Shown here in pieces: positions 2,726-43,538 of a stretch of 43,608 bases of DNA. Source of the DNA: Bacteroidota bacterium (GTDB lineage Bacteria > Bacteroidota > Bacteroidia > B-17B0 > Aurantibacillaceae); assembly GCA_025363015.1 (NCBI GenBank), contig JANYEQ010000045.1:1-43608 (forward strand), written 5' to 3'. The translations under genes and the position numbers were made by a program. The number at the start of each line of letters is the position of its first letter. Position 1 is the first letter of the stretch. The notes beneath the pieces were generated by a model. That model saw only the letters and a list, made by a program, of their open reading frames with translations, was not told where the DNA came from and did not search any database.

Positions 2726-3652
2726 CTATTTATTATTTATAAACTCTACCAAAGCGCCTTCTTTTAATGAATAAGTAGAGACGAGTAAGCTGTTTATTGA
2801 AAACGATTTTAAAATAAAATTAATTAATAGCGTTGAAATTACAATCATATCAAAACGCATGGGAATTAAGCCTTTTATGTTTTTTCGTTGGCTTAAGGTT
2901 GATTTGATTACTAATTGAGCTACAGTATTATAATCTAAAATATTTATAGTGTAGCATATTTTTTCTTTTACTAATTCTTCACCATTTAATTCGCCATGTA
3001 TCATTTCAATAATAGAATCGAATGCACCCGACGAGCCTATTAATTGTGTGGTAGGAAATAATGTTATGGCCTTAAACAAAGGTTGTAATTGTTGTGTTAA
3101 GTATAAATTAAGTGTATTAATTTCGGGTTGGGTTATTGGGTTTGAAATTGTAAACATATCTAAAAGTCTGGCAGCCCCTAATAAAAAACTTTGTTTCCAA
3201 AAAATTTGCTGGCCATTGGCTAAAATAAATTCGGTACTTCCTCCGCCAATATCCATAATTAATGCGGTGCTACTATTTAGTTTGCTAGCTTCTTTATTAC
3301 CTAAATAAATTAATTCGGCCTCGCGATTACCATCAATAATATTAATATCAATGTTAAAATTATGTTTAGCGGTAGTAACAAACTCCTCGCCATTTTTAGC
3401 ATCTCTAATTGCCGAAGTAGCATAGGCTAATGTTTTTTGTACATTGTAATTTATTAAATGTGTTTTAAATTGGGCTAAGGCAGCAATGCCTCTATTAAAC
3501 GGAAGAGAGGCGATATAACCTTGGTTAATTGTTCCTTCGCCCAATTTAACAGCCACCCGGGTATTAAAAACTTTGGTATACTGTAGTCCATTAATTTTTA
3601 CAATTAATAAATTAAATGTATTTGTGCCACAATCTATAATTGCTAAAATCAT
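2726..3652 (-). CDS. ppx: Ppx/GppA-family exopolyphosphatase or guanosine pentaphosphatase
   Basis: A 308-residue ASKHA-fold phosphatase. The N-terminus MILAIIDCGTNTFNLLI is the family's phosphate-1 loop (D-x-G-[ST]-N-[ST]), and MDIGGGSTEFIL in the middle is the second phosphate loop. The length equals the two-subdomain core, without the HD-like C-terminal extension of E. coli Ppx, which is usual in Bacteroidota. It hydrolyses polyphosphate or pppGpp in the cytoplasm; sequence alone does not say which. It is transcribed leftwards, away from the divergent subtilase at 3748, and probably leads an operon with the downstream response regulator, a hint of a link to stress or phosphate control (inference). 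Confidence 0.9.
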   Translation of the reverse strand: MILAIIDCGTNTFNLLIVKINGLQYTKVFNTRVAVKLGEGTINQGYIASLPFNRGIAALAQFKTHLINYNVQKTLAYATSAIRDAKNGEEFVTTAKHNFNIDINIIDGNREAELIYLGNKEASKLNSSTALIMDIGGGSTEFILANGQQIFWKQSFLLGAARLLDMFTISNPITQPEINTLNLYLTQQLQPLFKAITLFPTTQLIGSSGAFDSIIEMIHGELNGEELVKEKICYTINILDYNTVAQLVIKSTLSQRKNIKGLIPMRFDMIVISTLLINFILKSFSINSLLVSTYSLKEGALVEFINNK

Positions 3653-39989: not shown

Positions 39990-42050
39990 ATGAAAAAGAT
40001 TTACGCATTGCTACTTGTTTTGGTTTGTTTTTTATCGGTAAAATCGCAATTTAATTGTGGTTTTAATATGGCTCAAAATTACTTATTTAATACTGATAAT
40101 ACAGCAAAAGCACGTTTTGAACAGTTAATGATAGAGGCAGAACAACAGCAACACGCAGGTGTAAATAAAACAAATGCAGTTGCAAATTACACCATACCAG
40201 TAGTATTTCATATACTACATACTGGCGGAAGCGAAAACATTAGCGACGCACAAATTAATAATGCCGTTAGTATTTTAACGCGCGATTTTTTAAAGCAAAA
40301 TGCCGATACTTCTAATATCATTAATCAATATAAAAATTTAGCTGCTAATTGTAATATAGAGTTTAGGTTGGCTACTAAAGACCCCAACGGTAATTGTACC
40401 AATGGTATTACAAGGCATTACGACCCACATACCAATTGGGCGGTAGATTTTAGTTATTACAAATACACGTGGCCTCCTAGTAAATATTTAAATGTGTATG
40501 TTGTAAAAACAATGCAGGCAGGGGCAGCAGGGTATACGTACTTACCAGGGTCGGTAGGTGCAAATGCCGATGCTGTTGTTATTTTAAGTCAATATGTAGG
40601 CAGTATTGGTACGGCAAACCCTTACGTATCGCGTGCACTAACACACGAAGTAGGGCATTGGTTTAATTTACAGCATACTTGGGGTAGCACAAACCAACCG
40701 GGTGTGGCTTGTGGCGATGATGGCGTAAATGATACACCCATTACCAAAGGGCATAGCAATTGTAATTTGTCTTCGGCGGCTTGTACAGCGGGTATTGTAG
40801 AAAATGTACAAAATTATATGGAGTATGCATATTGTAGTAATATGTACACCGTTGACCAAAAAATACGTATGCAAAATGCTTTAAATAGTAGTGTAGGGGG
40901 GCGTAATAATATATGGACAACTGCCAATTTAATAGCTACAGGCATTATTAACCCCAATATAGCCTGTGCGCCTAAGGCCGAATTTATATCAAGCCAAAGT
41001 GTAACCTGTATAGGTAATACTTTAAATTTTACGGATTATAGTTACAATGGCACCATTAATAATTGGAAATGGAGCAGTACCTTTGCTGCAAATACAAGTA
41101 CTTTACAAAATGGTAATTTAACCTTTACCAACTCGGGTATTGCCCCTGTGCAATTAAAAGTAAGTAATAGTGTGGGGGCCGACTCTATTATTAAACAATT
41201 TATTGTTGTAATGGCAGGTGTAGGAAGCGGCACTACAAATGTTATTAAAGATTTTGAAACTGGTGTTTTTCCTGATAATAATTGGATAGAAACTACGCCC
41301 CAATACGGGAGTAATTTTGCAACTTACAGCACATCGGCCAGTACGGGTAGTAATTGTATATGGGTAAATAATTTTTTAGATAACCCCAGCGAAATAATTA
41401 ATTTTTACAGCCCTGATTATAATTTACAAAACAGCCTTAATGCCCAATTAAATTTTAAATATGCCTATACCCAACAAAGCACGGCAAATGATGATAGATT
41501 AACAGTTTACACATCAATAAACTGTGGCGCCAGCTGGGTGGCTGTTTACAACAAAAGTGGTACTGCTTTAAACAGTACGGGTACTATACAAACAACGGCG
41601 TATTTAAACCCAAGCCCTAGCGAATGGATAAGCGAAATGGTAAACTTAAGTTCGGTTATTGGAAACCAAAATGTATATTTTAAATTTGAATTTACGAGTG
41701 ATGTAAATGGGTCGGGTAACAATATTTTTATTGACGATATAAATATTAGTAGCGTTGTGGGAGTAAAGGAATTAAAAATTAAAAATTATGATTTAAAAAT
41801 TTATCCTAACCCGGCTAATGATATTTTAAATATTGAATGGAAAATAGAAAATGGGCTTTTGGCAGGCTTGGCTAACAACCATCAATATACAATTACCAAT
41901 AGTTTGGGGCAAATTGTAAAAGAAGAAAGTATTTCATTTACACATCATCAATCGGCAATTAACATTTGCGAATTAAAAAGCGGTATTTATTTTTTACACT
42001 TAACACGTAATGGGCAATTAATTGCTACAGCAAAAATTATTAAACAGTAA
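39990..42050 (+). CDS. M43-family (pappalysin-type) zinc metalloprotease with T9SS sorting domain
   Basis: A 686-residue secreted protease. The signal peptide ends near SVKSQ (residue 20). The catalytic domain (about 120-310) carries HEVGHWFNLQH at 219-229 (zinc ligands H219, H223, H229; catalytic E220), and a Met-turn at NYMEY. A PKD-like domain (about 325-405), a choice-of-anchor J-like domain (about 415-590) and the sorting domain (KIYPNPANDILNI to ATAKIIKQ) follow. The mature enzyme should cleave proteins outside the cell. TAGCTTTG at 39965-39972, an exact TAnnTTTG match, lies just upstream, although a good -33 element is lacking. The 21-base repeat array starts 44 bases after its stop. 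Confidence 0.92.
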   Translation: MKKIYALLLVLVCFLSVKSQFNCGFNMAQNYLFNTDNTAKARFEQLMIEAEQQQHAGVNKTNAVANYTIPVVFHILHTGGSENISDAQINNAVSILTRDFLKQNADTSNIINQYKNLAANCNIEFRLATKDPNGNCTNGITRHYDPHTNWAVDFSYYKYTWPPSKYLNVYVVKTMQAGAAGYTYLPGSVGANADAVVILSQYVGSIGTANPYVSRALTHEVGHWFNLQHTWGSTNQPGVACGDDGVNDTPITKGHSNCNLSSAACTAGIVENVQNYMEYAYCSNMYTVDQKIRMQNALNSSVGGRNNIWTTANLIATGIINPNIACAPKAEFISSQSVTCIGNTLNFTDYSYNGTINNWKWSSTFAANTSTLQNGNLTFTNSGIAPVQLKVSNSVGADSIIKQFIVVMAGVGSGTTNVIKDFETGVFPDNNWIETTPQYGSNFATYSTSASTGSNCIWVNNFLDNPSEIINFYSPDYNLQNSLNAQLNFKYAYTQQSTANDDRLTVYTSINCGASWVAVYNKSGTALNSTGTIQTTAYLNPSPSEWISEMVNLSSVIGNQNVYFKFEFTSDVNGSGNNIFIDDINISSVVGVKELKIKNYDLKIYPNPANDILNIEWKIENGLLAGLANNHQYTITNSLGQIVKEESISFTHHQSAINICELKSGIYFLHLTRNGQLIATAKIIKQ

Positions 42051-42094: not shown

Positions 42095-42409
42095 TTACTC
42101 AAAGTTGGCTGTACCATTTTTAAAGTAGTACTTAGCATACTTAAAGTTGAGCATCACACTTTTACAGTTGGCTGTACCATTTTTAAAGTAGCACTTGGCA
42201 TACTTAAAGTTGAGCATCACACTTTTACAGTTGGCTGTACCATTTTTTAAGTAGCATTTGGCATACTTAAAGTTGAGCATCACACTTTTAAAGTTGGCTG
42301 TACCATTTTTAAAATAGCACTTGGTATACTTAAAGTTGTACTTTACACTTTTAAAGTTGGGTGTACCATTTTTAAAGTAGCACTTGACATACTTAAAGTT
42401 GTGCTTCCT
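42095..42409. repeat. Nested tandem repeat: 15 x 21 bases, grouped as 5 x 63 bases
   Basis: Fifteen 21-base units run from 42095 to 42409 with no insertions or deletions. Each has an aaagt(t/a)g core in the same place. Three unit types alternate, so a better-conserved 63-base period sits on top (starts near 42103, 42166, 42229, 42292, 42355). On the minus strand all 15 units are open in one frame as heptapeptides of the type xxx[NY]FKx (GTANFKS, VMLNFKY, AKCYFKN), ending exactly in TAA at 42095-42097. A GTG/ATG start occurs only from 42283, giving 62 residues. The plus frame also reads as heptads ([IT][FL]KVxxx) but has a stop in unit 8. There is no signal peptide or promoter. It could be a minisatellite or the remains of a repeat protein. 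Confidence 0.85.
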
Positions 42410-42718
42410 CCTGTTAACTGTGTAAATTGTTAAAAAACTTAGCCCTTTTGTTAAATTTATTAGTGCAATTGTTAAAGCCTGTTAAAGCAAGTAACTTTTT
42501 TTAAATTATTACGTTATAAAAGTTATAAAAAAGAAAGGAGCACTGCATGATAATAAACTTGAGAAGGATTACAAAGATTTTGAACAATGAGAAAAAATTA
42601 AAATCTGCGTTAAATCTAAATCAGCAGCAAAAAATAAAATAACGCTAAGTGCAACTTACAGTACTTTATGCCTTAGTGGTTAAACAATAAATTAATTAAC
42701 CAAAAAAAATTAAAAATT
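42410..42718. other. 309-base stretch between the repeat array and the last gene
   Basis: No convincing gene. A 31-codon rightward frame with an ATG lies at 42547-42642, basic and Lys-rich. An overlapping frame without a start is interrupted by one TGA and has coding-like text on both sides (DNKLEKDYKDFEQ, stop, EKIKICVKSKSAAKNK). These may be coding debris. The promoter of the next gene should lie here, but I see no consensus match. Confidence 0.4.
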
Positions 42719-43483
42719 ATGAAAACAATAAGCGAAGTGGGGCATGCAAAAAATGTTGCTAACCTCGAAGATTTAATAAGCTACTGTACTGCCTTTGGTA
42801 GTACCTATAACCCAAGTTTAGCCGCCTTACAACTTAGTAGTTTAGCGGTATTAAACGCTACAGCCAATGGTGCAATTACCACTATGGTAAACTCGGTTAC
42901 AAATTACAAAATTGCAGTAGTAAACCGTACAATTACGTTTAAAAACCTAAAACTATTGGCACCGCGTATTATTAGTGCCTTAAAAGCTGCGGGTGCAAGT
43001 GCCCAAACTTTGGCTAATGCAAAAGCAATTTACAAAAAACTATTGGGGCGTAGTAAAAAAACAAGTAGCACCATAGTACCTACAAGTACTAAAGCGGTTG
43101 ATAATACTACACTACCGGCAATACCAGTAATAAAAACTATTAGCACATCGCAACAAAGCTTTGATAGTAAAATAGAATTTTTTACTGCCTTGGTAAATTT
43201 GGTAAACAGTGTGCCTAGTTATACGCCAAACGAGTTAGATTTAAACATAGCTGGTTTAACTAGTTTTTTGACACAACTAAAAACAGTAAATACCGCTGTA
43301 ATAACTACTACCACCAGCTTAGATGCTGCGCGTACTAACCGTAACCATATTTTATACGATGCAGTAACAGGCCTAGTAGTAATTGCCTTTGAGGTAAAAG
43401 ATTACGTTGCCAGCCTGTATGGTAAAAAAAGCAACGAGTTTAAAAACATAAATAAAATTAAGTTTATAAATATTAAATCTTAA
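42719..43483 (+). CDS. Helical hypothetical protein built of two similar halves
   Basis: A 254-residue protein without signal peptide, lipobox or membrane segment. Two halves look related. The first (about 15-75) has NLEDLISYCTAFGSTYNPS, then LQLSSLAVL and later A-x-x-x-R. The second (about 148-215) has FFTALVNLVNSVPSYTPNE, then LNIAGLTSFL and AARTNRN. A basic linker with KKLLGRSKKTSS joins them. I recall similar proteins with STSQ-SFD and SYTPNE blocks in other Bacteroidota, but not a named function. It is predicted mainly alpha-helical and cytoplasmic. It is followed by a strong terminator and forms a single-gene unit. Confidence 0.75.
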   Translation: MKTISEVGHAKNVANLEDLISYCTAFGSTYNPSLAALQLSSLAVLNATANGAITTMVNSVTNYKIAVVNRTITFKNLKLLAPRIISALKAAGASAQTLANAKAIYKKLLGRSKKTSSTIVPTSTKAVDNTTLPAIPVIKTISTSQQSFDSKIEFFTALVNLVNSVPSYTPNELDLNIAGLTSFLTQLKTVNTAVITTTTSLDAARTNRNHILYDAVTGLVVIAFEVKDYVASLYGKKSNEFKNINKIKFINIKS

Positions 43484-43504: not shown

Positions 43505-43538
43505 AAAACGAGAGAATGTTTCTCTCGTTTTTTTTTGT
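43505..43538 (+). terminator. Strong intrinsic terminator after the last gene
   Basis: A perfect 11-bp inverted repeat (43505-43515 with 43521-43531), core cgagaga/tctctcg, five-base loop, then a run of T residues. It lies about 20 bases after the stop codon. The last 70 bases of the window are AT-rich with no visible feature. Confidence 0.85.

Follow-up and report, generated by a model that had tools for sequence, protein, structure and literature searches.

How should a strictly periodic tandem repeat between two bacterial genes be read when both of its strands hold long open frames: as a gene, as a minisatellite or as a DNA element in its own right? The window, which is the whole 43,608-nucleotide stretch analyzed here, raises this question near its right edge, where such an array lies between a peptidase gene and a gene with no known family. 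The features of this region are as follows.

39990-42050: gene of an M43 peptidase that ends in a T9SS sorting tail (PF05572 and PF18962; Pfam)
42098-42412, no strand assigned: tandem array of 15 units of 21 bp, grouped in 63-bp super-repeats and interpreted as non-coding (TRF, self-identity)
42413-42540, plus strand: array-edge "leader" with GTTAA at 42413, 42429, 42450, 42471 and 42481 (spacings 16, 21, 21 and 10)
42719-43483, plus strand: gene for the 254-aa array-associated protein, which is basic, predicted to be all-helical and of no known family
43505-43531, plus strand: intrinsic-terminator-like hairpin after the gene, weak evidence alone (1 found; shuffles give a mean of 1.1)

Structure and setting of the array

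The array consists of 15 units of exactly 21 bp, with no indels and a 63-bp super-period. TRF calls a period of 63 over positions 42101-42401 (4.8 copies, 92% matches, 0% indels) and a period of 21 over the same stretch. Self-identity is 0.57 at a lag of 21, 0.58 at a lag of 42 and 0.90 at a lag of 63; the three alternating unit types are therefore real. These data bear out the indel-free architecture described in an earlier note on this DNA, which gave the correct length but placed the array three bases too far to the left, at 42095-42409. The note also proposed two rounds of expansion, first of 21 and then of 63 bases, which fits the window, and suggested a search of the genome with the repeat consensus. 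The window array matches a second array at a contig end in the same genome (G000:C123:10506-10785; 68% identity, E 3.4e-23); over C123:10520-10785, the match has an E value of 2.6e-23. In the C123 array, the rounds would be 21 and then 84. Because the 21-bp units are related and the super-periods differ (63 versus 84), the two arrays expanded separately.

The array starts 47 bp past the stop of the M43 peptidase gene and ends 306 bp before the start of the 254-aa ORF, beyond which the contig, and with it the window, ends after 125 bp. Two strong matches to solo units elsewhere in the window (12505 on the plus strand and 28493 on the minus strand) lie inside ORFs and were taken as chance. The units recur in 63-bp blocks with no unique spacers, and no recurrent cas-like neighbor was seen at related loci, so the array does not have the make-up of a CRISPR. 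Heptamer arrays of the type AAAGTTC/AAAGTTT occur in a genome of the same genus (G009, contigs C193, C305, C339 and C169), and a TTTAAGG-like heptamer array occurs in a more distant genome (G072:C84). The G009 arrays share AAAGTT with the window array but were rejected as its kin, given that no 7-bp periodicity is present in the window array; the heptamer arrays form a minisatellite class of their own.

The neighboring gene and its arrays across genomes

The 254-aa protein has a pI of 9.8, and all 18 aligned members of its family are similarly basic (pI 9.3-10.0). AlphaFold2 confidently predicts an all-helical structure (pLDDT 86.2, pTM 0.74), with long helices at residues 39-75 and 177-213 and a low-confidence linker at 113-139. 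The family alignment suggests two related halves. No family is returned by Pfam, NCBIfam or PADLOC, and searches of PHROG (E 0.37) and Rfam (E 0.3-0.9) give chance-level matches only, including a CRISPR match in Rfam that lies inside the gene and far below threshold. By sequence, the protein has no solved relative; its predicted fold contains no recognized DNA-binding domain and has no Foldseek match at E <= 0.001. The best VIA-align matches, to TTYH1 (Z 10.2; 4.6 Å over 176) and to an S23-family bundle (Z 9.7; 3.6 Å over 103), were rejected as relatives because such Z scores are common among helical bundles. Searches of 72,556 plasmid and 50,697 phage records gave no match, and a single-protein scan of viral contigs found no relative.

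The earlier note left this gene unconnected to the array, and the pairing of the two is the main finding of this analysis. A first search found the protein in 10 of 41 genomes, some with several copies. Tandem repeats of period 21, 42, 63 or 84 lay beside most of the gene copies, with unit sequences that looked unrelated, and TRF detected repeats at 16 of 23 gene loci in this round, as compared to a single locus each among 29 M23-gene loci and 37 others. An 18-member profile detects the family in 38 of the 395 genomes examined from the class; a few short family fragments from this search were not counted as loci of their own. Removal of rows that repeat others (L176-L181, L188 and L145) and of two fragments (L137 and L141) reduces 72 loci to 62 non-redundant ones. 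At 53 of these 62 loci, a 21- or 22-bp array lies less than 1 kb from the gene; among 90 control stretches, the number is 4 (Fisher p 1.7e-26). The controls comprise the 29 M23-gene loci, 24 tiles from the same genome and the 37 loci fetched as weak array matches, and the array finder was open to lags of 8-90. A repeat of another period is also present at 7 of the 62 gene loci and at 2 of the 90 controls. Among the nine gene loci that have no array, L211 is cut inside the gene by a contig end, and at four others the sequence beyond the gene on its downstream side is shorter than 1 kb.

The period is held closely. An out-of-phase lag of any kind appears in 4 of 56 arrays, and a 22-bp unit is found at three loci (L204, L214 and L215) that form one clade (support 100/100); two further loci in the same two genomes (L216 and L217) keep 21-bp units. 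A module contains roughly 5-23 tandem units, which in most cases lie no more than about 0.3 kb from the gene, on one side of it. A search of 602 kb of the window's genome shows five arrays longer than 200 bp with 21-bp lags, three of them beside the gene (C29, C80 and C111) and two without it (C123 and C21). Two other long arrays in the same 602 kb have periods of 41/82 (C32) and 62 (C35). Arrays of 21-bp units with no 254-aa gene in sight were seen at L245:14550-14976 (G000:C21), L269:3313-3769 (G075:C56) and L003:10506-10785 (G000:C123). The array at G075:C56 begins about 48 bp after a gene that by eye has a T9SS-like tail, much as in the window.

T9SS genes are frequent neighbors of the family gene, and the window's genome has 118 matches to T9SS sorting domains, a number that points to Bacteroidota. 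In many cases the gene just upstream of the family gene ends in a T9SS-like tail, as in the window (39990-42050; Pfam) and, judged by eye, at L128, L130, L134, L138, L139, L142, L191, L192, L209 and L211. The T9SS genes were nevertheless rejected as the true partner of the array, since only 1 of 30 T9SS-gene loci, examined as a further control, has an array, and this one lies inside an ORF. No recurrent motor, Rep-like or cas-like neighbor emerges from the 62 loci, whose neighbors were intercompared and assessed by eye and partly with Pfam; T9SS tails and guaA-like or Rep-like neighbors were called by eye except where Pfam-scanned.

Coding capacity, unit conservation and co-divergence

The minus frame of the window array is open through all 15 units and stops at the left edge, and the plus frame with the recurring K-V pair has a single stop, TAA, both as the earlier note had described. 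The note took this openness as a sign of coding. However, when a 63-mer of the same composition is shuffled and repeated in tandem, at least one of the six frames is open in 74.6% of cases and at least two are open in 34.4%; for a shuffled 21-mer, at least one is open in 99.8%. The note's proposed comparison of units for synonymous bias reveals no significant excess in any frame: the plus frame of the window has 5 synonymous changes versus 4.3 expected, and C123 has 6 versus 4.0 (p 0.17). The minus frame of the C123 array contains stops, none of the six frames is open in 11 of the 54 arrays from related loci, and some arrays have a 22-bp unit. A decayed or live heptapeptide-repeat protein would be consistent with window periods that are all multiples of three, with a plus K-V frame that is fully open in C123 as well, and with a modest excess of open frames over column-permuted arrays (0.76 versus 0.57 on the gene strand and 0.65 versus 0.41 on the other strand). 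Set against the missing synonymous excess, the closed and 22-bp arrays and the absence of a 3-bp period from the pooled conservation of 42 arrays (p 0.95), this explanation is extremely improbable. Applied to a 126-bp coding repeat as a control, the 3-bp test picks up the codon period (rank 2 of 63); in two short 21-bp control repeats, the signal is absent. The earlier note is thus right in its facts and wrong in leaning to peptides: these data support neither a decayed repeat protein nor a source of a small repeat peptide, and its remaining option, a regulatory array, is the one supported, as an array at the level of DNA.

Conservation within the units follows a different period. Pooling was restricted to 21-bp arrays of at least 8 units, namely 41 family arrays and C123. 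In the mean spectrum of column conservation for these 42 arrays, one peak is significant, at 10.5 bp, with a power of 0.107 versus 0.050 (sd 0.007; 0 of 2000 permutations). The peak is kept under stricter trimming (42 arrays) and when one array is used per protein cluster at less than 50% identity (22 arrays), with 0 of 3000 in each case. It is not caused by sub-repeats of 10 or 11 bp, as lag 10 falls below expectation (z -3.4), nor by dyads (z 0.8). The idea of a single contiguous conserved core per unit was rejected, as 3 of 42 arrays reach p<0.05. Taken alone, the window array does not show the signal (p 0.65), and C123 gives p 0.09. No 11-bp peak appears in the three 22-bp arrays, and arrays away from the gene lie near the null value (C21, 0.064; C60, 0.069; G075:C56, 0.057). 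A control 21-bp repeat with 3.8 copies, L173, has high power at 10.5 bp (0.12). Because L173 scores high and the two 21-bp controls give no 3-bp signal, single short arrays are uninformative either way. Together with the null results for the window array, the 22-bp arrays and the arrays away from this gene, this places the helical evidence in the pool of family arrays and not in the window array.

The units are mostly unlike between loci, and those of close homologues are alike on the same strand. Unit similarity exceeds the 99.9% null level in 12 of 1434 array pairs (1-2 expected); all 12 are same-strand, and most join loci whose proteins are 57-91% identical. Across the 42 downstream arrays, units compared on the same strand become more alike as protein identity increases (Spearman 0.21, Mantel p 0.002), with no such relation on the opposite strand (p 0.15). 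Pairs above the 99% null level make up 55% of the 11 pairs with protein identity above 70% and 2% of the 465 pairs with identity below 35%. These results bear on the idea that the array is a neutral minisatellite, which simply builds up in those intergenic islands that also hold the gene. Units that differ between most loci would be expected in that case, as would super-periods of 42, 63 and 84, which slippage and unequal crossing-over produce; the arrays without a gene and the lack of a helical signal in the window array alone are also consistent with it. It accounts poorly for an association at 53 of 62 loci versus 4 of 90 at a period of 21 or 22, for the pooled 10.5-bp conservation and for the co-divergence with the protein, and we consider it quite unlikely.

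Of the arrays, 46 lie downstream of the gene and 10 upstream. The window has the minority layout, as does L126 (G021), its nearest relative in the protein tree (support 92/89). Intrinsic terminators are enriched in the gap between gene and array (10 of 38 loci, 0.8 expected; seven downstream loci were left out because their gaps are too short) and are found after the array at 2 of 36 loci (0.9 expected). Minimum free energies of RNA folding for 57 arrays are unremarkable, with mean z values of -0.11 and 0.04 and with 3 and 1 arrays below -2; pseudoknots were not scored. This layout recalls type III toxin-antitoxin loci, in which a transcribed repeat RNA would bind the protein. Insofar as ToxIN is covered in the portion of PMC5086642 consulted, such loci likewise combine a tandem array with a single gene for a small protein, in some cases separated by a terminator, and the upstream array of the window has the same order. 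In contrast to the type III order of array, terminator and toxin gene, most arrays in this family are downstream, their 21-bp units give no general RNA-structure signal in the folding energies, conservation follows the DNA helix, and the protein belongs to no Pfam family and no known toxin family. We regard a repeat RNA that binds the protein as a very improbable explanation.

Mobility, known systems and the proposed platform

The leader at the array edge links the window to other arrays of its genome. A 95-bp part of it (42424-42518) recurs at C60 and C21, in each case bordering a 21-bp array whose units differ, and part of it recurs beside the 62-bp array of C35. The GTTAA boxes are spaced by 21, 21 and 10 bp both in the window and at C60. 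A universal leader was rejected, as the sequence is not found outside a few loci of the window's genus. The C60 array (L303) precedes a different gene, which encodes a 203-aa protein of a second family, B. This unannotated family of about 200 aa was seen just twice (L303:1808-2416 in G000:C60 and L258:550-1149 in G000:C35), both times directly downstream of a repeat array (periods 21/63 at C60 and 62 at C35) with the leader whole or in part. A relationship between family B and the 254-aa family is not supported (hhalign probability 0.5%).

Together with the palindromes that flank them, the gene and the array could make up a transposable or cassette-like unit, in which the array would be a recombination or transposition site or a by-product. 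The patchy distribution of the family in 38 of 395 genomes is consistent with movement, as is the partial mixing of genome families in the protein tree (f16, 6 rows and 6 changes; f21, 5 rows and 4 changes). L139 and L142, whose proteins are 87% identical, have the gene, the array and about 180 bp beyond in common, with different upstream genes. A distal stem-loop occurs at three places in a genome, two of them at modules; the distal part of L129 is inverted relative to that of L131 and lies on the other side of the gene; and arrays with the same leader precede the 254-aa gene, the family-B gene or neither. However, inheritance within genome families is also strong (24 changes on the whole tree versus 41 with shuffled labels), searches of Pfam, NCBIfam, PADLOC and PHROG reveal no transposase family at the module, and no convincing terminal inverted repeats of at least 16 bp, a threshold that passes over 12-bp repeats, surround the four modules inspected. 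Mobility alone also leaves the 10.5-bp conservation unexplained. As the sole explanation of the array, a mobile unit is unlikely; it is compatible with a role of the array as a protein-binding platform.

Several further observations concern the ends and the spread of the modules. A large imperfect palindrome, CACATTT-CAAGC ... GCTTG-AAATTT ... CCCGCCTGTGTG, is conserved at the distal end of several modules (L139:2698-2776, L138:2584-2661 and L131 at about 3080-3170). L129 (G014:C2) is 100% identical over 3.8 kb to L180 (G089:C59), and L183 (G093) is 97% identical to L184 (G299) over about 3-4 kb, although the genomes of each pair are assigned to different families. These identities may reflect either recent transfer or contamination of the bins; many of the surveyed genomes may be metagenome bins, and L129 alone of the first pair was counted. 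Units such as AAAGTTGACCA have what we take to be a resemblance to the end repeats of IS21-family transposons (istA/istB elements). This candidate was rejected, as the IS21 loci examined in the window's genome and four relatives carry no unit array, apart from one isolated 13-bit match at L095.

A pattern scan for period 22, which was not a survey of 21-bp arrays, brought up further arrays. The 22-bp arrays with AAAGT cores in Prevotella and related genomes (e.g., Segatella baroniae and Prevotella dentasini) are L058, L061-L063, L067, L071, L073, L078 and L081. The 22-bp AAAGT-type arrays at L053, L054/L076, L064 and L075, from several phyla, stand next to genes that presumably encode plasmid replication initiators, and these arrays are possible iterons. 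Iterons are short direct repeats that lie close to a small-protein gene and recur at, or close to, integral helical turns; Rep proteins bind them side by side. The centromere-like systems ParR-parC and TubR-tubC share this plan, and copies of ParR line up on parC along one helical face, according to the sections of PMC5016525 drawn on here. The family has phased repeats beside a gene as well, and binding by the gene product is putative. It differs from iteron and centromere arrays in having no plasmid or phage match and, across the 62 loci, no recurrent motor or replication-initiator neighbor, in an array that is mostly downstream, in super-periods of 42, 63 and 84, and in a protein without a known family.

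The pair also resembles two kinds of dispersed repeat. BrickBuilt, a MITE of Porphyromonas gingivalis, is a dispersed intergenic minisatellite of the Bacteroidetes with conserved and non-conserved unit positions; the excerpted description in PMC4596501 gives it a 23-nt unit and IS5-like 12-bp terminal repeats and mentions no encoded protein, whereas the arrays studied here have units of 21 or 22 bp and a gene family. Prokaryotic satellite families are likewise tandem repeats dispersed within a genome; PMC6749651 reports such dispersal as rare for non-coding satellites and, in the extracts consulted, names no gene partner and no fixed helical period. Among titles and abstracts, with few subscription papers covered, no description of the gene-array pairing was recognized. 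We thus file the pair neither with iterons and centromeres, whose logic it resembles, nor with BrickBuilt.

The association of array and gene, the 21/22-bp period, the pooled 10.5-bp periodicity, the co-divergence and the absence of coding and general RNA-structure signals are direct observations. The two-turn period, the pooled constraint on one face of the helix, the lack of coding or RNA signals and the co-divergence point to a protein-DNA platform. On balance, we favor the view that the array is non-coding DNA that forms half of a recurrent two-part module, the gene of a basic, helical protein of about 250 aa plus a 21/22-bp array, and that it probably serves as a nucleoprotein platform. 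One 21-bp unit spans two turns of B-DNA, so that protein copies could line up next to each other along a single helical face. The binder would most simply be the product of the neighboring gene, and divergence of protein and unit sequence together would give each locus its own specificity. That the protein binds its own array, how it would assemble there and what it would be for are inferred; candidate purposes are auto-regulation, the organization or bridging of DNA, and the spread of the module. Our best reading is an iteron- or centromere-like platform in a module that moves. A broader proposal, which we hold tentatively and regard as possible but short of probable, is a horizontally moving system in which a helical protein co-evolves with a private, helically phased 21/22-bp satellite, with at least two protein families (254 aa and about 200 aa) on the same array-leader chassis. 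If true, this system would be previously undescribed and a bacterial analogue of satellite DNA with its own binding protein.

Intergenic minisatellites of bacteria are easily dismissed as products of slippage or misread as small repeat proteins. Here, one class of minisatellite is linked with an unannotated gene family, holds to a two-turn period, bears in the pool the mark of selection on one helical face, and changes in step with its gene. The gene-array module could also explain orphan repeat ORFs and assembly breaks in the genomes of this group.
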